A stretch of DNA of 64,000 bases from Brevibacterium sp. CS2 (GTDB lineage Bacteria > Actinomycetota > Actinomycetes > Actinomycetales > Brevibacteriaceae), in NCBI RefSeq assembly GCF_005280295.1, contig NZ_CP040020.1:2356001-2420000 (forward strand). Direction: 5' to 3'. The notes under the pieces are model-generated. The model did not search any database and had not been told where the DNA came from. It was given only the letters and a program-made list of their open reading frames with translations. Of this stretch, positions 2,534 to 16,401 are shown one piece after another (the stretch's first letter is position 1; every line of letters begins with the position of its first letter). The position numbers were made by a program, and so were the translations under genes.

Positions 2534-3397
2534 TCAGTGTTTGGACCCGCGATGAGCGGGAGGGTGGGGCGGCAGTTCGAGTTCGACAATCGACGGCTCC
2601 GCGCGGGAGTCGAGCGACCTGGTGGCGATGTCGAGTTCGCTCGAGTCCTCGCAGGAGACGATGACCGTGAGCAGGTCCTCGGGATCCCGTGATCTGCGCA
2701 GCTGCTGGTAGATGAGGATCCCGGCCCAAGCACGGGCTCGGTCGGCGGATTCGCGCAGGTAGTCGATGTTGTCGATGACGACGACGGGTTGGCGGCTGAG
2801 ACTCGCCAGCCCGAGTTCGAGGAAGAATTTCTGCAGCTCACTCAGCTCAGAGACGAATACCTCTCCGTCATCGTCGATGAGGAAGTCCGCGCGCTGGGCG
2901 TCCTGCTTCGAGAACGTCCCCGGCGGGAGTTCGTCAATGATCTCCGTGGCCGTGGTGAAGGTGTCCCGAATGAGACCGATGACCTCACGCAGGGTCGATT
3001 TCGACGCCCACGGCTTGTACCAGGGCTGGAGCATGATCTGTCGTTCTGCGACGTGCTGTGCAACCGTGAAATCGTCCTCAAGGTCCGTCAGCCCGCCGAT
3101 ATGTCCGACCGCAACCTGCCCGCGCACGGTGCGGGCCTGCTTGCGGATATCGATATCGCCGAGGCGGCCCTCCCCCTCGGAGACCCGCATCCTTCCTGCC
3201 AAGGACAGGAGGAGAGAGGTCTTCCCGCTGCCAGCGGGACCACGTACGACAGCGATGGCACCGGTCGGCACCTCGAGGTCGATATCGGTGAACACATCGC
3301 CCTGTTTGCCGGACAGCGACCAACCGCGCACCGCGACCGCTGGCGCGTCGATGTCGGTGTCCTCGGCGAGAGTGTTCATCGTGCTCTCCATAGCCAT
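2534..3397 (-). CDS. Atypical ABC-type ATPase partner of the YhgE protein
   Basis: About 287 residues. A Walker A motif GPAGSGKTS lies near residue 50 after a strand typical of ABC nucleotide-binding domains. The signature region reads SELSELQKFF instead of LSGGQ, and the Walker B strand reads VVVIDN, with Asn where ABC ATPases normally carry the catalytic Glu. ATP binding is likely but hydrolysis may be weak or use other residues. The gene ends 39 bp before the YhgE gene on the same strand, so an operon is likely. The ATG at 3397 was chosen because GGGAG precedes it; ATGs at 3391 and 3379 are alternatives. Confidence 0.75.
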   Translation of the reverse strand: MAMESTMNTLAEDTDIDAPAVAVRGWSLSGKQGDVFTDIDLEVPTGAIAVVRGPAGSGKTSLLLSLAGRMRVSEGEGRLGDIDIRKQARTVRGQVAVGHIGGLTDLEDDFTVAQHVAERQIMLQPWYKPWASKSTLREVIGLIRDTFTTATEIIDELPPGTFSKQDAQRADFLIDDDGEVFVSELSELQKFFLELGLASLSRQPVVVIDNIDYLRESADRARAWAGILIYQQLRRSRDPEDLLTVIVSCEDSSELDIATRSLDSRAEPSIVELELPPHPPAHRGSKH

Positions 3398-3433
3398 CGC
3401 TCCCAATCGTCTGTGCCTTCGTCGCTCCGGTCA

Positions 3434-3488
3434 GTGCCGAAGAATTCTGCACCGCGCAGGTGACTGCAGAATACGCCACTACCGGCAC
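3434..3488. promoter_or_regulatory. Nested dyads upstream of the ABC/YhgE operon
   Basis: TTCTGCA (3445-3451) and TGCAGAA (3465-3471) form a perfect 7-bp inverted repeat with a 13-bp spacer. An outer GTGCCG/CGGCAC pair (3434-3439, 3483-3488) surrounds it. The site lies 48-91 bp upstream of the ATPase start. Operators of this form suit TetR-type regulators, but no regulator gene is visible nearby. The rest of 3398-3758 shows no gene; it contains a run of ten G at about 3490-3500. Confidence 0.45.
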
Positions 3489-3758
3489 GTGGGGGGGGGG
3501 TGCGCAACGGGCGACTCCATGCGAAATTACCCATTGGTAACTCCAATGAATTCTCTCATGAAAATAGTGGGAGAGTGACCCGAGAAGACCCAGTTGTCAC
3601 GAATTGCACATCGGTTTCCTGCACAGAGTCCGTGCGGTCTTTCGATGGGACCGCGGCGCCCTCTAGATGGCCGGGACCGTAAGGCGATTTCAGGGGTAGG
3701 GTCGCACTACCGAAGACGTCGATGTCCCTTGACACACGGCGACGAGAATGAGAAGCGA

Positions 3759-4101
3759 ATGAGCACGGCCGATCGCAATCCCACCGGAATGCACAGACGG
3801 TGGGGGCTGAGCCCGTCGACGCTGGGCCTCGGTGATGGCGACCGGCGTCATGTCGATCGGCGCCGAGGGAATCTGGCGACATGCCGTCCACACGCTGCCG
3901 ATGACCTTTTCGGCCGGACTGTGGAGCATGGTCTTCCTGCTGGGCATGCGAACGGCGGCGAGCATGCATCTGGGCCGCCCGGGTCGTGTGCCGGCGATCG
4001 AACTGGTCGGCCAGCACTGGTTCTGGATCGGACCAGCGGTCTGGGCGATGGTCTTCGACACCATGGTCACCTCATTCGTCAGAGCCCTCCGCAGTCGCTG
4101 A
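3759..4101 (+). pseudogene. Remnant of a TDT-family (tellurite resistance/C4-dicarboxylate) transporter
   Basis: From the ATG at 3759 the frame encodes a soluble start leading to RRWGLSPSTLGL. The next frame continues with VMATGVMSIGAEG, the usual first-helix motif of TDT transporters, so a one-base shift near 3830 is inferred. The sequence then jumps to features of the family's last helices (LWSMVFLLGMRTAAS, HWFWIGPAVWAMVF). The total is about 115 residues instead of about 330. It reads as an N-terminal stub joined to a C-terminal stub by an internal deletion. The family call is from memory of motifs only. Confidence 0.55.
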
Positions 4102-4106
4102 TCGGT

Positions 4107-5571
4107 GGGCTTGTCAATCCCTGTGTGTAAGGGGTGTGACGGGGGTTACAAGTAGGGTTCGATTCGTTCGGGGTAGACGAGGGCGAGTTGGCCGAGGGCG
4201 GCCTTCCAGTTCGTGGTTACCGATCCTTCGATGAGGCGTCCGGGGGCTCGGCGTTCAGCGGCGGGTAGGCCGCGTTCCTTCTCGCGCTCCCGGGCTCGCT
4301 TGTCCTCGATGTTGCAGATCGCCAGCCACAGCAGCTTGACCACGGCGGCGTCGTTGAGGAAGTGGCCGCGGTTCTTGGTGACCTTGCGCAGCTGGTAGTT
4401 CAGCGACTCAATCGCGTTCGTCGTGTAGATGACGCGGCGTAGCTCGGGCGGGAGGGCCAGGAACGGGATGAACCGCTCCCAGGCCGCCCGGAACGTCCGC
4501 GCCGCGGCGGGGTACTTCGTGCCCCAGGGGCCGGCCTCGAATGCCTCCAGCGCCTCCAGAGCCGCGTCCTCGCTGGCGGCGGTGTAGATCGGCTTCAGCG
4601 CCGTGGCGACGGCCTTGCGGTCCCCGTAGGACACGAACCGCATCGCGGCGCGGATCAGGTGGACCACGCAGGTCTGCACGGTGGCCAGCGGCCAGGTCGC
4701 CTCGATCGCCTCGGGGAAGCCGGTCAGCCCGTCGCAGCACACGATCAGCACGTCGCGCACCCCGCGGTTGGCGAGGTCCGTGCAGACCTGGGCCCAGAAC
4801 TTCGCGCCCTCGTGGGTCTGGACCCAGATCCCCAGGACGTGCTTGATGCCGTCCATGTCCACGCCGACGGCGATGTGGGCGGCCTTGTTGACCACGTGAG
4901 AGCCGTCCTTGACCTTGACCATGATCGCGTCGAGGTAGATCACCGGGTACAGCGACTCCAGCGGACGGCGCTGCCACGCGAGGACCTCCTCGGCGATGGA
5001 GTCCACGACCTTGCCGATCGTCTCGTGACTCACGTCCACCCCGACCGTGGAGGCTAGGTGGTGGGAGATGTCGCGCAGCGTCATCCCGCCGGCGTACAGC
5101 GAGATGATCATCCCGTCGACCCCGTCCAGGCGGCGCTGACCCTTGCCTACCAGCATCGGGGTGAAGGTCCCGGCCCGATCGCGCGGGATCGCGAGCTCGA
5201 TGTCCCCGACCTCGCTCGTCACGGTCTTGGCGTAGTGCCCGTTACGGGAGTTCGGGTGGTCGGCGGCGTCGACCGCGCCCTTCTCATAGCCCACGTGCTC
5301 ACTCAGCTCGGCCTCCAGGCCCCGCTCCAGGGCGGCCTTGAGCATCCCGCCCAGCACCCCGCCGTCTCCGGTCAGCGGTTCACCGGCATCGATCCGGGCG
5401 AAGACCTCATCCAGGGCTCCGGTGGTCTTGAGCTCGGCCGCGAGCTCGGCCTGCTTTCTACGACGCTCAGCGCGCTCCTCGGCGCTCATCTTCGGCATGG
5501 CGTCAATCGTCACAGTGTGTCTCCTTCAGGGGGTGGTGCCACACCCCTTACACACACCATTTGACAGGCCC
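4107..5571 (-). mobile_element. Complete IS256-family insertion sequence
   Basis: The ends GGGCTTGTCAA (from 4107) and TTGACAGGCCC (to 5571) are imperfect inverted repeats of about 34 bp that share an internal TGTGTGTAAGGGGTGTG block. The transposase gene fills the element. No 8-9 bp target duplication is visible: the left flank reads GATCGGT and the right flank CCCGGCCGA. This suggests the flanks were rearranged after insertion. Confidence 0.85.
4146..5513 (-). CDS. IS256-family transposase
   Basis: A full-length protein of 455 residues. The DDE catalytic triad is recognisable: Asp in YLDAIMVKV, Asp in VCCDGLTGF and Glu in NAIESLNYQLRK. The N-terminus is the usual helical DNA-binding part, and the C-terminus ends PYL like other family members. 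Nothing suggests inactivation, so the element may still move. Confidence 0.93.
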   Translation of the reverse strand: MTIDAMPKMSAEERAERRRKQAELAAELKTTGALDEVFARIDAGEPLTGDGGVLGGMLKAALERGLEAELSEHVGYEKGAVDAADHPNSRNGHYAKTVTSEVGDIELAIPRDRAGTFTPMLVGKGQRRLDGVDGMIISLYAGGMTLRDISHHLASTVGVDVSHETIGKVVDSIAEEVLAWQRRPLESLYPVIYLDAIMVKVKDGSHVVNKAAHIAVGVDMDGIKHVLGIWVQTHEGAKFWAQVCTDLANRGVRDVLIVCCDGLTGFPEAIEATWPLATVQTCVVHLIRAAMRFVSYGDRKAVATALKPIYTAASEDAALEALEAFEAGPWGTKYPAAARTFRAAWERFIPFLALPPELRRVIYTTNAIESLNYQLRKVTKNRGHFLNDAAVVKLLWLAICNIEDKRAREREKERGLPAAERRAPGRLIEGSVTTNWKAALGQLALVYPERIEPYL

Positions 5572-5662
5572 CCCGGCCGAGGTCGAAGCTAAGCATTTTG
5601 AAACCGTGGCAAGACAAGTCGATACTTTAACTGCCGTCTAGGAACTAACCCAGGACGGTTCA
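5572..5662. repeat. Direct repeat copy 2 (about 91 bp)
   Basis: Second copy of the 168-259 repeat, same orientation, again starting at the base after an IS256 terminus. Its right boundary falls where serine recombinase coding sequence begins. Together the two copies bracket the YhgE/ABC/TDT block plus the IS256 element (about 5.4 kb). Recombination between them would remove that block. Confidence 0.85.
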
Positions 5663-5899
5663 CAGCGCCTCCGGGGAGAAGACCCAGACCCATGATCACT
5701 ACCTCAAAGGCAGCCTGTACTGCGGGCAGTGCGGGTCACGGCTGACGCTGACCAACGCCAAGAGCCGCCGCGGCGTGATCTACCCCTACTTCATGTGCAC
5801 CGGATGGCACGCCCGCCGCACCAATTGCGAACGAAAGTCCATGTTCGTGCCCGACATCGAAGCCGCGGTCGAGGACTACTACCGCCACGTCCAGATACC
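5649..5899 (+). pseudogene. Large serine recombinase, zinc-ribbon fragment (part 1 of 2)
   Basis: The open frame contains HDHYLKGSLYCGQCGSRL, then a second cysteine cluster around CTGWHARRTNC, typical of the zinc-ribbon domain of large serine integrases. The catalytic N-terminal resolvase domain and recombinase domain are missing, replaced on the left by the repeat at 5572-5662. The frame stops being recombinase at 5899, where IS3-A begins. Joining 5899 to 14357 restores one continuous frame (HVQIPEHVVTAL). Confidence 0.85.
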
Positions 5900-5953
5900 T
5901 GAAGCGCCCTGAGTTTGTTGGAGGCTCCTGACCTTGGAAACGAGGATGGAGTT

Positions 5954-6298
5954 ATGCCGAAGGAACTGGCGAATGGGAAGCCGACGACGCGTCGCTACTC
6001 GGACGAGGAGAAGGCCGCCGCGGTGCGGATGGTGAGGACGCTGCGGTCCGAGCTCGGGGTCACGCAAGGAACCGTGCAGCGAGTCGCGACGCAGCTCGGG
6101 TACGGGGTCGAATCCGTGCGGATGTGGGTGAAGCAGGCCGACATCGACGAGGGTGTCACCTCCGGCGTGAGCTCGGCGGAGGCGCAGCGGGTGAAAGAGC
6201 TCGAGCAAGAAGTCCGCGAGCTTCGCCGGGCCAACGAGGTGCTGAAGCGGGCTGCGTCTTTCTTCGGGGCGGAGCTCGACCGCCACTACCGGAAGTAG
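5954..6298 (+). CDS. IS3-A OrfA (transposase helix-turn-helix subunit)
   Basis: About 114 residues starting MPKELANGKP after a purine-rich GAGGATGGA. It has an N-terminal helix-turn-helix (YSDEEKAAAVRMV ... ESVRMWVKQ) and a C-terminal leucine-zipper-like helix (RVKELEQEVRELRRANEVL), the layout of IS3 OrfA proteins. The orfB frame overlaps in the -1 register, as expected for programmed frameshifting in this family. An in-frame upstream ATG at 5915 is less likely. Confidence 0.88.
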   Translation: MPKELANGKPTTRRYSDEEKAAAVRMVRTLRSELGVTQGTVQRVATQLGYGVESVRMWVKQADIDEGVTSGVSSAEAQRVKELEQEVRELRRANEVLKRAASFFGAELDRHYRK

Positions 6299-6706
6299 TC
6301 GCGTTCATCGACGCGAACAAGGACGACCTCGTCGACGGTCGCCGGCTCGGAGTCGAGCTCATCTGCAGACAGTTGCAGGTGGCTCCGAGCAGCTACTACG
6401 CCGCTAAGACCCGCACCCCGTCCGCCCGTGCCCAGCGGGACGAGGAGCTGATCCCGCGGCTCGTCGAGCTGTGGGAGGCGAACTACCGGGTCTACGGGGT
6501 CCGCAAGCTCTGGAAGGCGGCCCGGCGGGCGGGGATCGCGATCGGCCGCGACCAGACCGCGAGGTTGATGAAGGTGGCAGGGATCGAGGGCGCGAGGCGC
6601 TCGAAACGGGTGAAGACGACCAGGCCGGATCCGGCGTCCGCGCGACACCCGGATCTGGTGCAGCGGGAGTTCACCGCGACCGCTCCGAACCGGCTCTGGG
6701 TGACGG
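6289..6706 (+). pseudogene. IS3-A OrfB transposase, part 1 of 3
   Basis: Encodes the N-terminal part of an rve-type transposase (FIDANKDDLVDGRRLGVE ... QREFTATAPNRLWVT). The frame is cut exactly before the first catalytic Asp by the transposon at 6707. Joining 6706 to 12532 restores LWVTDLTF. The left boundary is approximate because OrfB is normally made by frameshift from OrfA. Confidence 0.88.
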
Positions 6707-6762
6707 TGTGACTTCTGCGTTTAAATGGCGGGGTTCTTCCGACGTTCCGTGGCGGGCCGGGG

Positions 6763-7581
6763 TCAGGTGACGCCGATGACCAGGGTGCTTTGGGCGGCTT
6801 CGATGACGTCGTTGGTGATGGTGTCGAGTTCGTTGATCTTCAGCACGCGCTGGATCTGGGGGATGAGGCGTTCGAGCAGCCGGAAGTTGCCGCGGGTGAC
6901 CCGCGCGATGGCGGCGATGGCTTGGGCGTCGGTGAAGTCTTCGGGGTCGAGGGTCTTGCCGAGGGAGCGCCAGTGTCGTTGCAGGACGAACAACAGTTCG
7001 TCCTGACCCAGGGGTCGGTATTGATGGGCGAACCCGACCCGGCTGTAGAACTGGGGGTAGTGGCTGAACTGCTTCTCCAGTCCGGGCATGCCGATCAGGA
7101 TCAGTGCGATGTCGTCTCGGTCGTAGCGGTCGCGCAGCAGTTCCAGGGCGGCGGGGCGGAGCCGTTCGGCCTCGTCGACGATGATCAGCTCGACGTAGTT
7201 CCTGCTGCGGCGCCATCCCCAGGTCTCGGGCGTGACGTCGCCGTGCGGCGCGAGGTGCTGTTCGATGCAGATGTTGGTGCGGGTGATGGCCTGATTGAGC
7301 TCATCCTTCAGGGTCCGCGGGGTGGTCAGCACGCTGGGGGTGTAGAGCACGGTGCGGCTCCGGTTCAGGGCGGCGTAGATCTTGGCGTCATCGTCGGAGC
7401 GCGGCCCCCAGTAGGTCAGCAGATCGTGGGCCTTGTCCCAGTGCGCGTAGCGGCGCGCCGAGAGCGTCTTGCCCACTCCGGCCGGCCCGAAGCACAGGCC
7501 GATGGTGTGGCCGCGGCGCACGGCGTCGGCGAACTCGGTGAAGCGGCGGTGTTCTTTGGTGACGATGAAGCGCTGGCTCAC
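6763..7581 (-). CDS. Transposition ATPase (TniB/TnsC-like AAA protein)
   Basis: 272 residues from a GTG at 7581 that overlaps the stop of the transposase gene by 4 bp. Walker A is GPAGVGKTLS (near residue 35) and Walker B is LIIVDEAERL (near residue 135). A sensor/arginine region follows (LILIGMPGLEKQFSHYPQFYSRVGF). Such ATPases select target DNA and stimulate the partner Mu-type transposase. The family includes TniB, Tn552 p271 and IS21 IstB. Confidence 0.9.
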   Translation of the reverse strand: MSQRFIVTKEHRRFTEFADAVRRGHTIGLCFGPAGVGKTLSARRYAHWDKAHDLLTYWGPRSDDDAKIYAALNRSRTVLYTPSVLTTPRTLKDELNQAITRTNICIEQHLAPHGDVTPETWGWRRSRNYVELIIVDEAERLRPAALELLRDRYDRDDIALILIGMPGLEKQFSHYPQFYSRVGFAHQYRPLGQDELLFVLQRHWRSLGKTLDPEDFTDAQAIAAIARVTRGNFRLLERLIPQIQRVLKINELDTITNDVIEAAQSTLVIGVT

Positions 7582-8984
7582 CTCAGGTCCTCCTTGTAGA
7601 CCTTCAACTTCCGTTTCGGCGTCTGCGCCGCCGCTGGTTCCTCCGCGGGAGGTGGTGTCTCGGTGGTGTGTGCGGCCACGACAGCGATGCGTTCGTTGAT
7701 GCCGGCCCGTAGTGCCCGGCGTCTCGCGTTGCGAGCGGCCTGGATCTCTTTGAGGCTGACCTTCTGGTCGTGGTGCTCCTGGTTGACGGCCTTGCAGAGG
7801 AACTCGTCGTGGTCGAAGACGCGGATCTCGGTGATGTCGCGAGGGTCGTAACGGATCACGACCGACTGTCCGACGTAGCCGGCCAGGGTCGGGGAGACGT
7901 AGCGCAGGCCCTGGAATCGGATGCCATCGCGGCGCACGACGCGGGTCTTGGCCACGGTCAGCAACAGTCCGTCGAGAGCTTCCAGGCTCTCGGGCATGCG
8001 GGGCAGCCAGCCCTCGGCGATCCACGCGCTGCGCGGGGAGGTGCCGATCTCGCTGTGCGTGCGGTCGTTGTAGGTGGCCACGAACCTTTCGACGGCGGTA
8101 TCGAGCTCGGCCAGGGACAGTGTCGGTGTTGGCCAGGGCTGGCCTTCGCCGATGTATCCGGGCAGGTCGGCCAGCAACTCGGTGTTGACGGTGCCGAAGA
8201 ACCGCTCGATCTTGCCCCGGCCCTGGGGGCGGGCGACGGTGGAATGGATCAGCCGGATGTGGAGGTCGACGGCGGTGCCGGCGAGCTGGTGGCTGATGAA
8301 GTCACTGCCGTGATCGACGTAGAGCACGTCCGGTAGGCCGCACATCGGCCAGGCCGGGTCGGCCTTGTGCCAGATCGCCTGCCGCAGCGCCAGCGCGGTG
8401 TTCATCGCCGACGGTGCGCCCAGGACGACGGTATAGCCGCAGATCGCTCGGGAGCAGTCATCGAGGATGGTCGTCAACCACGGCCGGGCAGGCTTGCCAT
8501 CGGTGCCGACTACCAGGATGTCGAGCAACGTGTGATCGGACTGCCACATCGCGTTGGGCCACTCCGCCTGCCGGCGCAGCACCAGCTCGTGCTTGTCGCG
8601 ATAGGACGCCGCGCCTTCCAGGGCGAGGGTGACCATGCCCAGGTCCAGGGCGCGCACGATCTCCCACACCACCGAATAGGACGGGACCGGCCACCCGTGG
8701 ATGCCGCAGATGCCGGTGACCTTGCGATGGATCGTGGCGATAGCCGGCCGCGGCTTGCTCAGCGCCAGACCCTCGATCACGTGGACGAGATCGGTCGGCA
8801 AGCGGTGGGTGCCGGCGTCCATTCGCGAGGCCGTCTCCAGGCCCGCGTAGCCGTCGGTCCGGTAGCGGGCGTGCCAGCGCTCCAGGGTCCGCAGCCCGAC
8901 GCCGGACTCGCGGGCCAGACGCGCGAGCGGAACCTCGTCCTCCACATGGAGCCGGAGAATGCGCCACCGCGCCGCAGCGTCCAT
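7578..8984 (-). CDS. Mu-type DDE transposase (TniA-like)
   Basis: 468 residues from ATG 8984 (MDAAARWRILRLHVEDE). The N-terminal part contains helix-turn-helix elements. The rve catalytic core has Asp in MWQSDHTLLDI, Asp in LYVDHGSDF and Glu in GRGKIERFFGTVN. A C-terminal Mu-transposase beta-barrel-like region follows (GIRFQGLRYVSPTLAGYVG). It would cut and join the 48-bp transposon ends. The frame is open upstream of 8984, but that extension is low-complexity and runs into the resolvase gene on another frame. Confidence 0.9.
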   Translation of the reverse strand: MDAAARWRILRLHVEDEVPLARLARESGVGLRTLERWHARYRTDGYAGLETASRMDAGTHRLPTDLVHVIEGLALSKPRPAIATIHRKVTGICGIHGWPVPSYSVVWEIVRALDLGMVTLALEGAASYRDKHELVLRRQAEWPNAMWQSDHTLLDILVVGTDGKPARPWLTTILDDCSRAICGYTVVLGAPSAMNTALALRQAIWHKADPAWPMCGLPDVLYVDHGSDFISHQLAGTAVDLHIRLIHSTVARPQGRGKIERFFGTVNTELLADLPGYIGEGQPWPTPTLSLAELDTAVERFVATYNDRTHSEIGTSPRSAWIAEGWLPRMPESLEALDGLLLTVAKTRVVRRDGIRFQGLRYVSPTLAGYVGQSVVIRYDPRDITEIRVFDHDEFLCKAVNQEHHDQKVSLKEIQAARNARRRALRAGINERIAVVAAHTTETPPPAEEPAAAQTPKRKLKVYKEDLR

Positions 8985-8994
8985 CGCCGCGCAC

Positions 8995-9591
8995 CTACTG
9001 CACGACGCTCTCGCGGCCACGCTGCGCGCGCTCCAGGGCACGGTAGACCGTGGAGCGGCCGACGCTGAACAGCTCGGCCAGCTCGCCCACGGTGTGCTCC
9101 TTGGCGGCATGCAGTTGGACGAGGTGAGCCTCCTGGCGTGGGGTGAGCTTCGGAGACTTCCCGCGCAGCCGGCCCTTGGCCTTGGCGACCTTCATCCCCT
9201 CGCGGGTGCGGGCGCGAATGAGGTCGGCTTCGAACTCGGCGACCATCGCCAGCACGTTGAACAGCAGTTTGCCCATCGGGTCCGTCGGGTCATACACCGA
9301 TCCGGCGATGCTGAGTTTCACCTCGCGGGCCGCGAGGTCATCGGCAATCTCGTGAGCATCGCGCACCGAACGTGCCAACCGGTCGAGCTTGGTGACCACG
9401 AACGTGTCACCGGCCCGGCATGCCGCCAGCGCCTGCCGCAGCCCGGCGCGATCCGCATTGCGGCCGGTCAGTCCGTGATCGACGTATATGCGCATCGCGT
9501 CGACACCGAGAGCGCTGAGGCCATCGCGCTGGGCGGTGAGGTCCTGTTCATCGGTGGAGACCCGGGCGTACCCGACCTTCAAAGCGGACAT
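8995..9591 (-). CDS. Transposon resolvase (small serine recombinase)
   Basis: 198 residues. The catalytic motif GYARVSTDEQDLTAQ carries the nucleophilic Ser near residue 12, KLDRLARSV carries the conserved Arg pair, and a C-terminal Hin-like helix-turn-helix is present (TVGELAELFSVGRSTVYRAL). It should resolve cointegrates at a res site. The AT-richer stretch just upstream (9592-9750), with short inverted repeats, is the natural place for res, but I could not delimit subsites. Confidence 0.93.
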   Translation of the reverse strand: MSALKVGYARVSTDEQDLTAQRDGLSALGVDAMRIYVDHGLTGRNADRAGLRQALAACRAGDTFVVTKLDRLARSVRDAHEIADDLAAREVKLSIAGSVYDPTDPMGKLLFNVLAMVAEFEADLIRARTREGMKVAKAKGRLRGKSPKLTPRQEAHLVQLHAAKEHTVGELAELFSVGRSTVYRALERAQRGRESVVQ

Positions 9592-9756
9592 GCTTCTAAG
9601 TGTGTCATATAAGGCCCCGTCACCGAACAGTTCACCGGACGGGTCTTACGGGACACCTCGTCAGGCATGCTATCGGACTCCCATGTCGGGAGTGGGTGTG
9701 TCCGGTCGAGGTTCCCCTTACGGGCATGCGATCTGGGCTGACGCCTGTGACCGAGT

Positions 9757-9782
9757 GTTCAGTGCGCGCTGTATAGTTCAGT
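9757..9782 (+). promoter_or_regulatory. Candidate CmtR operator/promoter of cmtR-cadD
   Basis: GTTCAGT occurs twice (9757-9763 and 9776-9782), 19 bp apart, with a GTATAG -10-like element between them. The second copy ends 2 bp before the cmtR start codon, so a repressor bound here would block transcription or initiation. The assignment is by position; no characterised operator was available to compare. Confidence 0.45.
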
Positions 9783-9784
9783 CC

Positions 9785-10144
9785 ATGCTGACTATTGCTT
9801 CGCGTCTCGACGTGATGAACCGCCTGGGTCGTGCACTGGCCGACCCCACTCGATCCCGGATCATCTTGACCCTGCTCGACCATCCCGCTTACCCGGCGGA
9901 ACTGGCCCGAGATCTGGACCTGACACGCCCGAACGTGTCCAACCACCTGGCATGCCTGCGCGATTGCGGGATCGTCGTCTCCGAGCCCGAGGGTCGTCGG
10001 ACACGATATGAGATCGCCGATTCGCACCTGGCGCAGGCGCTGACGGCACTGGTCGATGCCACCCTGGCAGTGGACGAAGACGCCCCGTGCATCGATCCCG
10101 CCTGCTCGCTTCCCGGATGCGACGCAGCTGGGGAGGGCGCATGA
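9785..10144 (+). CDS. cmtR: CmtR-type cadmium/lead-sensing ArsR-family repressor
   Basis: 119 residues with a winged helix-turn-helix (LGRALADPTRSRI, TRPNVSNHLACLRDCG). Cys57, Cys61 and Cys102 fall at exactly the positions known as the Cd/Pb ligands of mycobacterial CmtR. It should repress its own operon until metal binds. The stop codon overlaps the start of cadD (ATGA), so the two are translationally coupled. Both are cargo of the transposon. Confidence 0.88.
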   Translation: MLTIASRLDVMNRLGRALADPTRSRIILTLLDHPAYPAELARDLDLTRPNVSNHLACLRDCGIVVSEPEGRRTRYEIADSHLAQALTALVDATLAVDEDAPCIDPACSLPGCDAAGEGA

Positions 10145-10743
10145 TCCTCACCTCGGTCTTGCAGGCGATGGGCCTGTTCGCAGCGACCAACATCGACGAC
10201 ATCATCGTGCTCTCCCTCTTCTTCGCGCGAGGGGCAGGCCAGCGCGGCACTACCGCCCGCATTCTGGCCGGCCAGTACCTCGGATTCGCCGGCATCCTCG
10301 GTGCCGCGGTCCTGGTGACCATCGGTGCCGGAGCATTCCTGCCCTCGGCAGCCATCCCGTACTTCGGTCTCATCCCTCTGGGCCTCGGCCTCTGGGCCGC
10401 ATGGCAGGCCTGGCGCGGAGACGATGACGACGATGACGACGAGGCCAAGGTTGCCGGCAAGAAGGTCGGCGTGTGGACAGTCGCAGGCGTCACCCTTGCC
10501 AACGGCGGCGACAACATCGGCGTCTACACCCCTGTCTTCCTCAGCGTGGAACCTCTCGCAGTAGTCGCCTACTGCATCGTCTTCCTCGCGCTCGTCGCGG
10601 TCCTGGTGGCCCTGGCAAAGTTCGTCGCCACCCGCCCCCCGATCGCCGAAGTGCTCGAACGCTGGGAGCACATCCTCTTCCCCATCGTTCTCATCGGCCT
10701 CGGCATCGTGATCCTCGTCAGCGGCGGAGCCTTCGGACTCTGA
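10141..10743 (+). CDS. cadD: CadD-family cadmium resistance transporter
   Basis: 200 residues with about five to six membrane helices. The first helix begins with ATNIDDIIVLSLFF, and a repeated related motif NGGDNIGVYTPVF opens the second half. These two acidic motifs are typical of the CadD/LysE-like family. An Asp-rich loop (DDDDDDDE near residue 100) separates the halves and could interact with metal. The gene follows cmtR with a 4-bp overlap, so expression is probably metal-inducible. Confidence 0.85.
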   Translation: MILTSVLQAMGLFAATNIDDIIVLSLFFARGAGQRGTTARILAGQYLGFAGILGAAVLVTIGAGAFLPSAAIPYFGLIPLGLGLWAAWQAWRGDDDDDDDEAKVAGKKVGVWTVAGVTLANGGDNIGVYTPVFLSVEPLAVVAYCIVFLALVAVLVALAKFVATRPPIAEVLERWEHILFPIVLIGLGIVILVSGGAFGL

Positions 10744-10845
10744 CGTAGCGGCAGCGATCCAAACGGCCCCGACCGGGCGCACCCCTCTCGGTTCAGACCG
10801 CGACACCTACCTGCAGCCAGTCCTGCGTGATCGCGGCAACAAGAC

Positions 10846-10893
10846 CGCCACGGAGCGCTGCAAAAACCCCGCCACCAAGCGAACGAAGCCACA
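10846..10893. repeat. Internal degenerate copy of the transposon end
   Basis: An ungapped alignment with the right end (12476-12523) matches at 36 of 48 positions, including AACCCCGCCA, AGCG and a terminal CACA. It has the same orientation as the right end. It sits directly after the cadD module and before the SRPBCC/ArsR module, so it could be an older right terminus. The stretch 10744-10940 holds no gene. Confidence 0.7.
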
Positions 10894-10940
10894 CGCTGGT
10901 GTCGGAGTCGGGTCCGACGGAACCCCTCGACCGACGTTTG

Positions 10941-11444
10941 TCAGCGGTCGGAGTACTCCGCATCGGGGAACTTGTCGTACATCAGGTCACCCTCGATGCC
11001 GTGCTCAAGCCACGCCTTCAGCGACGCGAGTACGAGAGTGAAACCGGACATCGATTCGATGGCGTTGGCTGCCGGCGTGTCGCCCCCGAAGTCGGTCTCG
11101 CGGATGTGCACCAGTGTGGCGTCGCCGCGGTCCTCGAAGTCGATCCTCAGCGGCCGCCCATCGTCCCAGCGAAGGTCGAGCAGCCGGTTGGGGAGGGCCT
11201 CGACGACCTCTACCTTGGCGACGGCGCCAGCGATCTTGAACGTCCAGGTGACCCGCGCGCCGGTGCGTAGGGGCCCTGAAGATTCGGCCAGCCAGAACCG
11301 GCAGATTCGCTCAGGGTCGGCGAAGGTTCGGTACACCTCACCGGGTGCCTTGCGGATCAGCATGTCGACGTCGACGACGGGTTGATAGCTCACGGATTCT
11401 CCTGACGGGTGCAATGGTGTCGGCATTTGGGATGAGTCAGTCAA
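10941..11444 (-). CDS. SRPBCC (AHSA1-like) domain protein 2
   Basis: 167 residues with the START/AHSA1 pattern: an opening strand VDVDMLIRKAPGEVYRTFADPERICRFW, middle beta strands (GARVTWTFKIAGAVAKVEV, RIDFEDRGDATLVHI) and a long C-terminal helix (SGFTLVLASLKAWLEHGIEG). Such folds bind hydrophobic ligands, and the specific role is unknown. It overlaps the upstream ArsR gene by 4 bp, so it is the last gene of a three-gene operon. Confidence 0.82.
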   Translation of the reverse strand: MTDSSQMPTPLHPSGESVSYQPVVDVDMLIRKAPGEVYRTFADPERICRFWLAESSGPLRTGARVTWTFKIAGAVAKVEVVEALPNRLLDLRWDDGRPLRIDFEDRGDATLVHIRETDFGGDTPAANAIESMSGFTLVLASLKAWLEHGIEGDLMYDKFPDAEYSDR

Positions 11445-11827
11445 TCGTCGGCCGTCGTCTCAGCCGCGCGTTTGAGCGACTTGAGCCTCGTGTCCCATGT
11501 GGCGGAGAGATCGGCCAGCCATCGGGCGGAAGCGTCTAGGGGATCGGGGCGCGCGAAGTACAGAACCTCTCGGCCGGCTCGAACCCGCTCGACCAGTCCT
11601 GCCGTCTCAAGGACGTGCAGATGCTTCACGACCGCCTGGCGGGAAACCGGCAGGCGACCAGCGAGGAGCGTCGCGCTGGCCTGACCTATATCGACGAGGG
11701 CACTCAGAAGTTGCCGACGTGTCGGATCGGCCAGCGCCGCTAAGACGGCCTCGACGCTCTGATCGCCTCCATTGCTCGCGGCGGCGTTAGCACCGAGGGG
11801 CTGTCCCGTGTCAGCGGAGTTGGTCAT
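11441..11827 (-). CDS. ArsR-family transcriptional regulator
   Basis: 128 residues with a winged helix-turn-helix (ALADPTRRQLLSALVD ... PVSRQAVVKHLHVLE). There are no metal-binding Cys motifs, so a metal sensor is unlikely. Members of this type are often encoded beside AHSA1 proteins. It is sandwiched between two SRPBCC genes with 4-bp overlaps on both sides. The dyad at 12313-12330 is its likely operator. Confidence 0.87.
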   Translation of the reverse strand: MTNSADTGQPLGANAAASNGGDQSVEAVLAALADPTRRQLLSALVDIGQASATLLAGRLPVSRQAVVKHLHVLETAGLVERVRAGREVLYFARPDPLDASARWLADLSATWDTRLKSLKRAAETTADD

Positions 11828-12282
11828 GCCTGCATTTGCTCGGCGTCCCGCTTGGCGACGTCGAGCTGCATCTCCCAGCCTCCGACGTTGTCCTCCACGG
11901 CCGTGGCGCGGGCGTCGGCCGAGGGATACAGGGAGGTGAAGCCGCTCTCGACCACCCGCAACAGCGTGCCGCCGCCCTGTTCGGTCAAGAAGAACTCCAC
12001 TAGCGTGGAAGTGCCCTCGACGAGCTGCTGGCCGGGGTCCTCTCCGCCGCGGTAGGAGACGTAGCGAGGAGCATCGCTGGAGATGGGTAATACCGGGAAC
12101 CGACCGTACGGCGGATAATCCACGACGACGAGGTCACCTTCCTGGGTGACGGATCGATGAGAGGGGTCGCCGTCCCCGACCCACCAGCCCGGTTCACTCA
12201 CCAGCGCCCACACCCGCTCGATGGGCGCATCGATCAGGATTTCGCGCTCGATGCGGTCCATGTTTTCACCTGCACTGCTCAT
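11824..12282 (-). CDS. SRPBCC (AHSA1-like) domain protein 1
   Basis: 152 residues from ATG 12282 (ATG 12261 possible). The opening IEREILIDAPIERVWALVSEP is the characteristic first strand and helix of AHSA1/SRPBCC proteins. GTSTLVEFFLTEQGGGTLLRV gives the middle strands, and a C-terminal amphipathic helix follows. First gene of the operon with the ArsR regulator and a second SRPBCC protein. The ligand is unknown. Confidence 0.82.
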   Translation of the reverse strand: MSSAGENMDRIEREILIDAPIERVWALVSEPGWWVGDGDPSHRSVTQEGDLVVVDYPPYGRFPVLPISSDAPRYVSYRGGEDPGQQLVEGTSTLVEFFLTEQGGGTLLRVVESGFTSLYPSADARATAVEDNVGGWEMQLDVAKRDAEQMQA

Positions 12283-12312
12283 TTCGACCGTCCTTCGTTT
12301 GATCCACATGCT

Positions 12313-12330
12313 TGCAACCCTATAGTTGCA
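12313..12330. promoter_or_regulatory. Candidate operator of the SRPBCC-ArsR operon
   Basis: TGCAAC (12313-12318) and GTTGCA (12325-12330) form a perfect dyad around CCTATA. The site lies 31 bp upstream of the first gene of the operon. GTGCAACGG just beyond it is a further partial half-site. A dyad of this size fits an ArsR dimer. Confidence 0.5.
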
Positions 12331-12531
12331 CGTTGACGAACCACGTGCAACGGTTGGGTTGCGTCTTGAAGCGTTATCGAGCCGCCGGCGCCCGGACGCT
12401 GGCTTCCCGTAAGCCCATGGTCTTACGGAACGCCGGAGCATCACTGCTACCCATCGCGCGCGAGGGAGCGGAGGCCGCCACTGAACGTCTGAAGAACCCC
12501 GCCATTTAGCGGACGAAGTCACAGGTGACGG

Positions 12532-12944
12532 ATCTGACGTTCGTGGCGACCTGGGCCGGTGTCGCGTTCGTGTGCTTCATCATCGACGCGTTCTCCCGCA
12601 TGATCGTCGGGTGGCGGGTCGCGTCGCACATGCGCACCGTGATGATCCTCGACGCCATCGAGATGGCCCGCTGGTCCAGAGGTCACCGCCACGCGGACCT
12701 GCGGTGTCACAGCGACGCGGGGTCTCAATTCACGTCCATTCGCTACGGCGAACGCCTCGCGGAGATCGGCGCGACGCCGTCGATCGGGACCGTCGGTGAC
12801 AGCTATGACAATGCCCTGGCCGAGACGGTGAACGGGTACTACAAGGCCGAACTCGTCCGCGGGCCGGCCCGGTCCGGGCCGTGGAAGACGGTCGAGAATC
12901 TCGAGCTCGCCACCCTCGGTTGGGTGCACTGGCACAACACGCAG
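12532..12944 (+). pseudogene. IS3-A OrfB transposase, part 2 of 3
   Basis: Continues the orfB frame after the transposon. The first catalytic Asp (in DLTFVATWAG), the second (CHSDAGSQF) and the Glu (NALAETVNGYYKAEL) are all here. The frame is cut after HWHNTQ by IS3-B. Only insertion, not point decay, has destroyed the gene. A GTG at 12525 makes this look like a separate ORF, but its first bases belong to the target duplication. Confidence 0.88.
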
Positions 12945-13004
12945 GGGACTGCTGAGGGTTTAGTTGACTTCACGACTGGATAAGTTCCAGGAAGGATGGA
13001 AGTC

Positions 13005-13307
13005 ATGCCAAAGATCTACACCGATGAGTTCAAGCAATCAGCTCTCGAGCTCCTGGGCGAGGGGATGACCCAGAAGCAGGTCTGCGCCGACCTCGGCATC
13101 TCGAAGTCAGCTCTCCAGGCCTGGGTGCGTGACTCACGCCTGCGTGAGCACGGACTCGAGCCCTCTCGTGATGTCGAGGAGTCTCGCGCCCAGGCAGCAG
13201 CACTGAAGCGGATCAGGGAACTCGAGCGGGAGAACAAGATCCTCCGCGAGGCTGCAGCGTATCTCTCGCAAGCGAACTTGAAGCTCGGTGGTCATCACCC
13301 AAAATGA
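13005..13307 (+). CDS. IS3-B OrfA
   Basis: 100 residues from MPKIYTDEF, preceded by AGGAAGG at a suitable distance. It has a helix-turn-helix (LGEGMTQKQVCADLGISKSALQAWV) and a C-terminal zipper-like helix (RIRELERENKILREAAAYL). Its stop overlaps the orfB start (ATGA) in the -1 frame, consistent with frameshifting to an OrfAB fusion. An ATG at 12996 is an alternative start. Confidence 0.9.
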   Translation: MPKIYTDEFKQSALELLGEGMTQKQVCADLGISKSALQAWVRDSRLREHGLEPSRDVEESRAQAAALKRIRELERENKILREAAAYLSQANLKLGGHHPK

Positions 13308-14188
13308 TGTACCCGCTGGTCCTCGACCTTGCTGCCGCCGGGGTGCCGGTGGCAGTGGCCTGCCGGGTACTCGGCTTTACCAAGCAGGGTTTCTACAAGT
13401 GGTGCGCGAAACCTGTCTCTGACCGGGAACTCGAGGAGGCGCACTTGATCAATGCCGCCTACGACGTTCATACGGACGATCCTGAGTTCGGGCACCGGTT
13501 CATCGCTGATGAGCTCCAGGCGTGCGGATACAGCGCCTCTGAACGTCGTGTGTGGCGGCTGTGCTCGCAGCAGGAGCTGTTCTCCCACACGATCAAACGA
13601 GCCCGGAAGCACGGTAAGAAGCCCGGCCCGCCAGTGTGTGATGACCTCGTCGAACGCGACTTCACAGCAAAGGCAGTCAACGAGTTGTGGCTGACCGATA
13701 TCACCGAGCATCACACCAGTGAGGGCAAGCTGTATATGTGCGCGGTCAAGGATGTGTTCAGCAACAGAATCGTCGGTTATGCCATCGATTCGAGGATGAA
13801 ATCTCGTCTGGCTGTGGCGGCGATTGATGACGCTGTGGCTCGTCGTGGCGGACCGCGAGCCGTGGCAGGGTGTGTCGTTCACTCGGATCGCGGGTCGCAA
13901 TTTCGCTCTCGTAAGTTCCAGCAGGTTCTACGGCGTTACGGGCTAGTCGGATCGATGGGTCGGGTCGGCGCTGCTGGTGATAATGCGGCGATGGAATCGT
14001 TCTTCGCTGTGTTGCAGAAGAACGTCCTCGACCGGGGCCGTTGGGACACGCGAGCGAGGTTGCGGACATCGATCGTCCACTGGGTCGAGCGGACCTACCA
14101 CCGGAAGCGTCGGCAACGGCGTTTGGGTAAACTGACTCCGGTTGAATACGAGCTTGTTCACCACAAGGCCGTCACTCTGGCGGCATAA
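13304..14188 (+). CDS. IS3-B OrfB transposase
   Basis: 294 residues with a complete rve core: Asp in LTDITEHHTSEGKLY, Asp in VHSDRGSQF and Glu in NAAMESFFAVLQKNVL. The N-terminal HTH_21-like region (YDVHTDDPEFGHRFIADEL) is typical of IS3 family OrfB. The C-terminal tail with the YHRKRRQRRLGKLTPVEYE motif is complete. The element appears competent to transpose. Confidence 0.93.
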   Translation: MMYPLVLDLAAAGVPVAVACRVLGFTKQGFYKWCAKPVSDRELEEAHLINAAYDVHTDDPEFGHRFIADELQACGYSASERRVWRLCSQQELFSHTIKRARKHGKKPGPPVCDDLVERDFTAKAVNELWLTDITEHHTSEGKLYMCAVKDVFSNRIVGYAIDSRMKSRLAVAAIDDAVARRGGPRAVAGCVVHSDRGSQFRSRKFQQVLRRYGLVGSMGRVGAAGDNAAMESFFAVLQKNVLDRGRWDTRARLRTSIVHWVERTYHRKRRQRRLGKLTPVEYELVHHKAVTLAA

Positions 14189-14223
14189 ACCCCGGAGTCA
14201 ACTAAACCGTCAGCAGTCCCCAG

Positions 14224-14322
14224 CGCCTCCACGGCTACCTCGGCGACGTCCCGCCCGCCGAGTTCGAGAACGCGTTCTATGCTGTCCAAGCCGACCGCGA
14301 ACACCTGGTCGGAATCAAATAG
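14224..14322 (+). pseudogene. IS3-A OrfB transposase, part 3 of 3
   Basis: Restores the C-terminus RLHGYLGDVPPAEFENAFYA ... GIK-stop. Joined to parts 1 and 2 after removing the duplications, the frame runs without interruption for about 310 codons. The right inverted repeat of IS3-A follows. Confidence 0.85.
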
Positions 14323-14356
14323 CGCGAGTCTCCATCAGACCCAGGGCGCTTCAACC

Positions 14357-14924
14357 CGAACACGTCGTTACCGCGCTGCGCGAGCTGGTCACCAGCGAGT
14401 TCGACCGCCTGCACCAGGTCGCCAAGCACGAGGCCCAGGGGTACAAAGCCGAACGCGACGCGCTCCGTGACGAGCGCACCAAGCTCATGCAAGCTCACTA
14501 CGCCGGAGCCGTGCCCCTCGACCTGCTCGGCTCGGAGCAGGACCGCATCGCCCGTCGGCTCGCGTTCCTCGACGCCCAGATCAACGCCGGCGACATCGAG
14601 TACGAACAAGCCAAAGCACACCTGGACGACTGCCTCGCCCTCGCTGGGGACATGCACGCCATCTACATGAGCATCGACGACTCGCTACGCCGGATCGCCA
14701 ACCAAGCCTTCTTCGACAAGCTCATCGTCACCGATGACGACACCATCCACGGCGAACCCGGCGTCCCGTTCAACGTGTTCCTCGACCGCGACGTCCAGAC
14801 CCTCGCCGTCCGCCAACAGGGACGGACGGCGGAATCTGGAACTCAAACCGGTGATGTCGTCCGTTTGAACAACGACCTTCTGGTGGGCCCAGAGGGACTC
14901 GAACCCCCGACCCTCTCGGTGTAA
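14357..14924 (+). pseudogene. Large serine recombinase, coiled-coil C-terminal fragment (part 2 of 2)
   Basis: The frame continues part 1 and encodes the long charged helical region of large serine integrases (HVVTALRELVTSEFDRLHQV ... AHYAGAVPLDLLGSEQDRIA) and the end domain (RIANQAFFDKLIV). The last residues (GPEGLEPPTLSV) are the complement of the tRNA-Val gene, so the frame terminates inside the tRNA. Without an N-terminal catalytic domain it cannot be active. Confidence 0.82.
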
Positions 14925-14957
14925 ACGAGATGCTCTAGCCAACTGAGCTATAGGCCC
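14881..14957 (-). tRNA. tRNA-Val (anticodon UAC)
   Basis: The reverse strand folds as a complete tRNA: acceptor stem GGGCCTA/TGGGCCC, D arm with AGCTCAGTTGGCTAGAGC, anticodon stem TCTCG/CGAGA with loop TTTACAC (anticodon TAC), T arm GGTTCGAGTC, and an encoded CCA end at 14883-14881. It marks the right boundary of the accessory region. Its 3' end abuts the recombinase fragment, as at a tRNA integration site. Confidence 0.95.
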
Positions 14958-15018
14958 CGACCGCCGTTCCTGTCGTCCCGGTTCGGACGACGGTGACAGC
15001 GGAATCAGTATGGCACAC

Positions 15019-16401
15019 TCACCCGTCCGTCCGGCGTCCGTCCTCGAGCTCGGTTCCGCCCGGGACCGAGGCGGGGCTCGCCGCTTCGAGGCTCGTGCCC
15101 CGCCAGCGGGAGATCCCGCGCATGAGGTGGTAGATGCCGATCGCGCACGCGCTGCCGATCGCGATGCCTTCGAAGGTGAGGTCCCCGGCCATGATCGTGT
15201 AGTTCGCGATCGCGACGATGAGGGCGACGGCGGCGGTGTTGAGGTTGACCGGGTCGGAGAAGTCGACGCGGTTCTGCACCCAGATCCGGATGCCGAGGAG
15301 GCCGATCATCCCGTACAGCACGGTCGCCGCGCCGCCGAGGACGCCGGGCGGGATCGTCGCGATCGCCTCGCCGAACTTCGGGAGCATGCTGAGCACGAGC
15401 GCCATGAGGGCTGCGAGGACATAGGCCGCCGTCGAGTACACGCGGGTCGCCGCCATGACGCCGATGTTCTCGGCATAGGTCGTCGTGCCCGACCCGCCGC
15501 CGGAGCCCGCGAGCGTCGTCGCGAGGCCGTCGGCGAGCAGCGCCCGGCCGGTGATCGGGTCGAGGTTCTGCCCGGTCATCGCGGACACCGACTTGACGTG
15601 GCCGATGTTCTCCGCGACGAGGACGAGGACCACGGGGAGGAAAAGGCCGAGGAGCGCGAGGTCGAACGCGGGCGCGTGGAACTCCGGCAGGCCGACCCAC
15701 CCCGCCTCTCCGATGGCCGCGAAGTCGACCTGGCCCTGGAGCGCGGCGGCGGCATACCCGACGAGCACGCCCACGAGGATCGACAGCCGGCCGATGATGC
15801 CCTTGAAGAGCACCGTGGTGAGGAGGATCGCGGCGATCGTGATGACCGCGGTGAGCGGCGCCATCTGCACCCAGTTCCATGCCGCGGGGGCGAGGTTGAA
15901 GCCGATGAGCGCGACGATCGTCCCGGTGACGATCGGCGGCATGGTGACCTCGATCCAGCGGGTGCCGGCGAAATGGACGACGACGCCGATGAGCGCGAGG
16001 AGGATGCCGACGGAGACGATCCCGCCCTGGGCGAGGGCCATCTTCGCCGGGTCGACCGCGGTGCCCGACTCCGGGTCGAATCCGGTGACCGCGGCGAGCG
16101 GGGCGAGGAGGGCGAACGACGAGCCGAGGTAGGACGGCATCTTCCCGGCGGTGACGAGGAGGAAGAGCAGGGTGCCGACCGCGGTGAAGAACAGGGTGGT
16201 CGCCGGCGGGAACCCGCTCAGCAGCGGCACGAGGAACGTCGCGCCGAACATCGCGACGACGTGCTGGGCGCCGATCCCGGCGGTGCGCGGCCAGGAGAGC
16301 CGTTCGCCGGGCAGCACCACGGCTCCGGGCTCGATCCGCCTCCCGTCGCCGTGGAGCGTCCAGAACGGGGTGCGGGAGCGCGGGGAGGAGGTGCTGCTCA
16401 T
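15019..16401 (-). CDS. uraA: Uracil/xanthine permease (NCS2 family)
   Basis: 460 residues with about 14 membrane helices. NCS2 hallmarks are present: QHVVAMFGATFLVPLL in the first helix region, the SxGGxGTTTYAENIG motif (GSGGGSGTTTYAENIGVMA) in helix 10, and VAENIGHVKSVSAMTGQNLD containing the substrate-binding Glu. It imports uracil by proton symport in characterised relatives. First backbone gene after the tRNA; it has no obvious operon partner. Confidence 0.9.
   Translation of the reverse strand: MSSTSSPRSRTPFWTLHGDGRRIEPGAVVLPGERLSWPRTAGIGAQHVVAMFGATFLVPLLSGFPPATTLFFTAVGTLLFLLVTAGKMPSYLGSSFALLAPLAAVTGFDPESGTAVDPAKMALAQGGIVSVGILLALIGVVVHFAGTRWIEVTMPPIVTGTIVALIGFNLAPAAWNWVQMAPLTAVITIAAILLTTVLFKGIIGRLSILVGVLVGYAAAALQGQVDFAAIGEAGWVGLPEFHAPAFDLALLGLFLPVVLVLVAENIGHVKSVSAMTGQNLDPITGRALLADGLATTLAGSGGGSGTTTYAENIGVMAATRVYSTAAYVLAALMALVLSMLPKFGEAIATIPPGVLGGAATVLYGMIGLLGIRIWVQNRVDFSDPVNLNTAAVALIVAIANYTIMAGDLTFEGIAIGSACAIGIYHLMRGISRWRGTSLEAASPASVPGGTELEDGRRTDG

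Follow-up and report, generated by a model that had tools for sequence, protein, structure and literature searches.

Nested insertions beside a tRNA-Val gene of Brevibacterium sp. CS2 and a compound cadmium transposon whose relatives are flanked by target duplications of 6-10 bp

The window analysed here is a 64,000-nucleotide stretch of Brevibacterium sp. CS2 (contig NZ_CP040020.1, bases 2356001-2420000; the genome is one contig, 3,239,740 bases long and 99.99% complete); positions count from its first base unless another locus (an L number) is named. Near its left end, what is left of a large serine recombinase gene lies beside a tRNA-Val gene and is split by an IS3-family insertion sequence (IS3-A; 5900-14353, + strand), whose orfB is split in turn by a cadmium transposon (6707-12523, +) and by a second IS3-family element (IS3-B; 12945-14220, +). 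Each of the three is framed by a target duplication that can be read directly: ACC for IS3-A (5897-5899 and 14354-14356), the 8-bp GGTGACGG for the transposon (6699-6706 and 12524-12531) and CAG for IS3-B (12942-12944 and 14221-14223). The terminal inverted repeats are 5900-5927/14326-14353 in IS3-A (28 nt, 86%), 6707-6755/12475-12523 in the transposon (86%) and 12940-12969/14196-14225 in IS3-B (93%, a few flank letters included). A preliminary description of this DNA had reported the same elements and duplications; its limits and duplications for all three elements are exact to the base.

Elements of the IS3 family copy 3-5 bp of their target. IS3-A and IS3-B share the orfA/orfB arrangement, inverted ends and 3-bp copies of that family and differ in their state: IS3-A is twice interrupted, IS3-B intact. 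IS3-A comprises an open orfA frame with a helix-turn-helix (5915-6298, +, start approximate; PF01527), an ALIL frameshift pseudoknot (6253-6387, +; RF01497, 52.1 bits against a cut-off of 50) and an orfB in three pieces, at 6286-6706 (+; HTH_21, open), 12524-12944 (+; the rve core at 12525-12943, open) and 14221-14322 (+; open to the stop), the latter two starting with the duplications. IS3-B consists of orfA (12996-13307, +; PF01527) and orfB (13304-14188, +; NF033516, 256 bits against a cut-off of 160). Elsewhere in the genome are two copies identical to it over 1276 bp, and a third that is one base longer; one identical copy (L058) is flanked by the 3-bp CAC and the other (L060) by unlike sequences.

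Do relatives preserve the sites as they were before the insertions? The broken genes were searched piece by piece, rather than as joined sequences, and the pieces proved collinear on uninterrupted relatives, with overlaps of 3, 8 and 3 bases that equal the duplications. The recombinase pieces fall on L123, from another genome of the genus, at 4844-4613 and then 4615-4012, without gaps and with a 3-bp overlap that is ACC (88.8% identity for the first piece, 90.7% for the second); the alignment continues into the same tRNA-Val gene. The pieces of IS3-A match a Kocuria rhizophila plasmid (L125) at 3001-3787, 3780-4200 and 4198-4328 (92.7, 91.6 and 94.1% identity, with many small gaps in the L125 copy) and an Arthrobacter agilis plasmid (L126) at 1475-2281, 2274-2694 and 2692-2824 (76.9, 85.3 and 83.5%), with overlaps of 8 and 3 bp in both. 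The continuity of the frames across the junctions, as proposed at the outset, is thus borne out, down to the open orfB pieces. The genus search (41 genomes, one per species, own genome included) turned up no strain with partial occupancy.

Nesting of the three elements is therefore confirmed and is ordinary in itself. It fixes a partial order of events: IS3-A came after the recombinase, and the transposon and IS3-B both came after IS3-A. The preliminary description had claimed a relative order, which holds to this extent; the order of the transposon and IS3-B relative to each other is unreadable. Its view that the insertions are recent is supported, because copies of IS3-B are identical, a Dermacoccus copy shares 99.1% identity with the transposition half of the transposon, and the ratio of nonsynonymous to synonymous substitution rates (dN/dS) in the recombinase remnant is low: 0.10 and 0.15 for its two pieces against the intact homologue in L123, at dS of 0.45 and 0.36. 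These ratios indicate that selection was acting while most of the divergence of the recombinase from L123 arose.

The transposon is built around a transposase of the TnsB/TniA type. Behind its left end (6707-6755, +) follow a TniB/TnsC-like AAA_22 ATPase (6763-7626, -, start approximate; PF13401), the transposase (open frame 7578-9110, -, with the true start probably inside; helix-turn-helix, rve and Mu-transpos_C domains) and a serine resolvase (8995-9591, -; PF00239, PF02796). Among solved structures, searched by sequence, the transposase best matches TnsB 7svw (residues 64-469 of 510, E 3.3e-43), from a type V-K CRISPR-associated transposon (CAST). TniQ was not found in family searches of the five coding frames of 6763-10743 and seven other frames of 6671-10806. 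The cargo begins with a cmtR-like Cd/Pb regulator (9785-10144, +; NF047906, 172 bits against 150) and a cadD-like cadmium transporter (open frame 10087-10743, +; PF03596), followed by a complete right end inside the element (R1; 10845-10893, -), which agrees with the outer right end of L030 at 49/49 bases. Beyond R1 lie an AHSA1/SRPBCC-like gene (10941-11444, -; PF08327), an ArsR-like regulator (11441-11827, -; PF12840, PF01022), an open frame with a weak AHSA1/polyketide-cyclase-like part (11824-12522, -; PF08327, 21.1 bits against 22.1) and the outer right end (R2; 12475-12523, -). Plasmid relatives of the ArsR/SRPBCC module come from four records, all partial matches. By its duplication, the left end pairs with R2 only; R1 has no partner. 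What had been described as a 5.8-kb transposon has the ends and the duplication assigned to it, but is not a simple unit.

Where the parts came from is best seen in the relatives. The first 3000 bases (6707-9706) are 99.1, 98.8 and 97.6% identical to L010, L036 and L009, against 86.6 and 86.9% to the usual cadmium transposons L030 and L040; identity to L010, L036 and L009 ends at about transposon base 3018. The last 1157 bases of the portion up to R1 (9737-10893), by contrast, are 99.5% identical to both L030 and L040, which are 4170 bp long. This shift marks the transposon as a mosaic and places the switch from backbone type to cadmium module, on comparison of identities, near 9718-9736, in the stretch that separates the resolvase gene from cmtR and in the presumed neighbourhood of res. 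The module (9719-10893) was compared with 20 other duplication-flanked elements: it is 97-100% identical in 16 and 79% in L034, with no match longer than 150 bases in L031, L032 and L033. The backbone beside it in these 20 is 99% identical, 85-90%, 68% (resolvase part only) or without a match. L019, from Actinomyces provencensis, has the same layout as the window transposon: its two right ends enclose a module that resembles merR/merA (by our reading of the frames) and lies beyond the internal end, and only the outer ends carry a duplication, of 8 bp.

Other arrangements were met with in the family. In the genome of CS2 itself, a 15.7-kb element (L089 253-15954, genome 1822252-1837953) is flanked by ATCATGGG. 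Inside it is a second cadmium transposon, and the left end of the latter directly abuts backbone DNA of another family member. The cadmium module is also found in short elements of 1382 bp (L090 5887-7268, L144 437-1818) and 1934 bp (L127 2910-4843, L141 441-2374) that have little or no match to transposition genes; flanked by duplications of 7-10 bp, these probably moved in trans.

How long is the target copy that this family makes? The scan of duplication lengths covered the window, 37 loci, two from the CS2 genome itself (L089 and L090) and another 24 (L125-L148), and counted distinct elements with a flush duplication of at least 6 bp; L139 was dropped as a repeat of L032. Among 21 such elements, the duplication is 6 bp in five (L010, L014, L030, L034, L040), 7 bp in four (L029, from a Brevibacterium yomogidense record, L130, L132, L144), 8 bp in five (the window, L019, L089, L090, L133; that of L089 with weaker ends, scoring 26 and 27 of 38), 9 bp in five (L031, L032, L033, L041, L127) and 10 bp in two (L039, L141); none has 5 bp. 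The flanked ends read alike, TGTG.../...CACA, with CACG at one end of L014. Length varies even with close transposases: nine elements of one backbone type, with transposases 97.2-99.4% identical, have duplications of 6, 6, 7, 9, 10, 6, 7, 8, and 8 bp. One best stretch was taken for each of these alignments, and three are short (436, 346, and 214 of 465 residues in L029, L039, and L041), which may reflect frame breaks. Sixteen other rows of paired ends, some of them wrong pairings within one element, gave 0 in 14 and otherwise 3 or 4.

How, then, did a complete right end come to lie inside the transposon? A large serine recombinase gene beside tRNA-Val, most likely that of an integrative element, was reduced to its 3' part; IS3-A entered this gene with a 3-bp copy, and later the transposon (8-bp copy) and IS3-B (3-bp copy) entered orfB of IS3-A. 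In the course of events that we infer for the transposon itself, a cadmium transposon would have inserted into a related one, on the downstream side of the latter's res site; the two res sites would then have recombined, with loss of the inner backbone, and the inner right end would have stayed behind as a fossil. The transposon as it stands is a compound: the left end, ATPase, transposase and resolvase form a backbone of one type, which is fused to a cmtR-cadD module of another type with its own right end complete, and R1 is followed by the ArsR gene, both SRPBCC-like genes and R2. Exchange at res is the simplest reading of the mosaic. The transposase of this family, for its part, would join its ends at staggers that vary from 6 to 10 bp.

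Two other routes to the mosaic can be imagined. The transposase could have used the left end with a stray, distant right-end-like sequence, bypassing the right end of its own element and carrying the ArsR and SRPBCC genes along: the 8-bp duplication around the left end and R2, with the inner end partnerless, is what this would leave, and L019 repeats the layout with a mer-like module. Such a bypass is unlikely, however: alone it is insufficient for a backbone half and a cadmium half of different types that switch beside the resolvase gene, and R2 is 45/49 identical to an end of L009, which has a backbone of the window type; a common origin of the two outer ends in a single element would predict this. 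Alternatively, RecA-dependent homologous recombination between two related transposons, rather than resolvase, could have made the mosaic, the two backbone types being about 87% identical and so similar enough for it; this route should scatter the switch points across the backbone that the two share, yet the module starts at a constant position beside backbones of 99%, 85-87% and 68% identity, and we consider it improbable.

The observed lengths and the nest itself have also been open to challenge. If the family made a fixed short copy that chance matches extended, the range of 6-10 bp would be a misjudgement; members with no or short matches (0, 3, 4) are in keeping with this, as is a single 5-bp match in L041 (4031/9951), but the ends there, with scores of 21 and 20 out of 38, do not belong to the family. 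Were the copy of fixed length, only a periodic target could give a flush match of a different length, so the copy cannot be lengthened by chance, and with no 5-bp case among 21 elements whose ends read alike, a fixed copy is very unlikely. Still less credence is due to the idea that the nest is an assembly artefact, a misjoin of repeated elements. IS3-B is indeed present four times in the genome, but each element has its own exact duplication, the pieces are collinear with uninterrupted relatives, the genome is one nearly complete contig, and the first 801 bases of IS3-A have a single place in it at 100% identity, all others being short stretches at 68-84%.

Exchange at res and a variable stagger thus remain our preferred account, with several points weighing against it. 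No donor with the window backbone and SRPBCC genes but without the cadmium module was found, for which reason resolvase action at the switch is put forward conditionally; RecA recombination could yield one such joint; and the compound may be older than the insertion into IS3-A or may have arisen after it. Two recognisable ends without a flush duplication of at least 5 bp occur in L012, L023, L027 (= L129), L028, L037, L128, L134, L147 and the inner element of L089. The ATPase matches TnsC weakly (E 0.017), and the origin of the window recombinase in an integrative element, although most likely, is argued wholly from its relatives. With these points counted, the account as a whole (a partial order of insertions, a compound cadmium transposon, exchange at the res region and variable stagger) is one in which we have good confidence. 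The broader proposition, in which our confidence is moderate, is that there are actinobacterial TnsB-type transposons, apparently without TniQ, that stagger their joins by 6-10 bp with nearly the same transposase, and that compound metal-resistance elements would arise among them by exchange of cargo and right end at the res region, leaving complete ends inside larger units.

The recombinase gene that received IS3-A is itself incomplete, which the preliminary description did not see, any more than the further elements to its left. Its zinc-ribbon piece (5663-5899, +; PF13408, homologous to L123 from 5668) and its C-terminal piece (14354-14880, +) are collinear with the same regions of the intact member in L123, and the 3' end adjoins the tRNA-Val gene (tac; 14881-14957, -; ARAGORN). 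PF13408 is the sole domain in the window pieces, whereas the L123 frame has Resolvase, Recombinase and zinc-ribbon domains; two paralogous recombinases in the CS2 genome are collinear with both pieces at the protein level. The N-terminal catalytic half was found neither in the window pieces nor in the 30 kb to the left of the window, and a search of the whole genome with the catalytic half of L123 returned only the diverged paralogues (72% at 889.5 kb, 68% at 13.3 kb) and a 25-base match (2626 kb). The window gene is a 3' remnant without its catalytic half.

In L123, a provenance from an integrative conjugative element is suggested because SSB-like and TraG-like frames (named by reading) adjoin the recombinase. 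Integration of serine recombinases into tRNA genes is described as rare in PMC3218068, which names cases at tRNA-Leu and tRNA-Ser. Like such actinobacterial elements, the recombinases here have their 3' ends beside tRNA genes, in the window, in L123 (the same tRNA-Val) and in the two paralogues. The difference lies in the tRNAs, which for the three recombinases of the CS2 genome are Val here, His at about 14.4 kb and Ala at about 891 kb (at most about 150 bp from the last match), and in the window holding a remnant alone. Beside large serine recombinases of Brevibacterium, tRNA genes are seen at 14881-14957 in the window, L087 8360-8435, L088 7088-7161 and L123 4012-4088. Between tRNA-Val and a permease gene, 12 of 24 loci of the genus (L095-L118) have a tRNA-Pro gene that is missing from the window (14957-15019), and a match to the DNA that lies past tRNA-Val in L123 sits about 10 kb to the left of the window (L154 19228-19690), together hinting at rearrangement.

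To the left, the remnant ends at its truncation point against what reads as the remains of a third IS3 element, IS3-C (orfB tail and inverted end, 5572-5662, +), next to an IS256-family element with a Mutator-type transposase (4107-5571, -, ends by eye, +/-2; PF00872, E 1e-113; NF033543, 386 bits against 150). IS256-family elements make target copies of 8-9 bp. No matching copy was found around this one, where the flanks ...CTGATCGGT and CCCGGCCGA... differ; therefore, one flank has been rearranged or deleted. Two copies of IS3-C (168-259 and 5572-5662 of the window; L086 7526-10101) have nearly identical terminal stretches of 90 bases. Each copy is cut at the identical base by an IS256-family element of its own, the two elements being 75% alike, and CAG stands at the outer flanks, to the left of one copy and to the right of the other. 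A general preference of IS256 for one site in IS3 orfB was considered and rejected, as the 75%-identical element (IS256') has two other copies at unlike targets. The idea that IS3-C bounded a composite transposon within the recombinase is not supported, as the DNA flanking IS3-C' on the left has no recombinase match. The C-terminal part of a SLAC1-type channel gene (3832-4101; PF03595, below the family cut-off) stops a few bases short of the IS256 element.

What is new at this locus is the variable duplication and the modular build of a transposon of a known kind; we found no report on this actinobacterial cadmium transposon or its variable duplications in the open-access literature. If the variable stagger holds true within so close-knit a family, its structural cause could be tested on enzymes that are almost the same in sequence. 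The exchange of cargo, in turn, shows one cadmium module reaching several backbone types in different actinobacterial genera almost unchanged, and the nest supplies clean empty-site controls.

How does the transposon, whose target here was an IS3 orfB, relate to known systems? With Tn7-like elements and CASTs it shares a transposase matching TnsB and ends of the form TGTG.../...CACA; it differs from them in the weak match to TnsC, in that no TniQ or TnsA domain was found in it, and in the target copy, which is 5 bp in Tn7-like elements and 6-10 bp in all 21 elements here. Parallels are also offered by Tn5053/Tn402, known as res-site hunters for their preference for res sites as targets, which likewise combine a TniA-type transposase (rve and Mu C-terminal domains), an AAA ATPase and a serine resolvase with metal cargo beside the resolvase gene. 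Elements of the Tn5053 type duplicate 5 bp of their target, according to PMC7765201, as against 6-10 bp here, and TniQ, not found in our searches of the window transposon, sets the two further apart. The window family is distinguished as well by ends alike over about 49 bp, by an arrangement in which resolvase, transposase and ATPase follow one another in the direction of the left end, and by its collected relatives, which are mostly actinobacterial.

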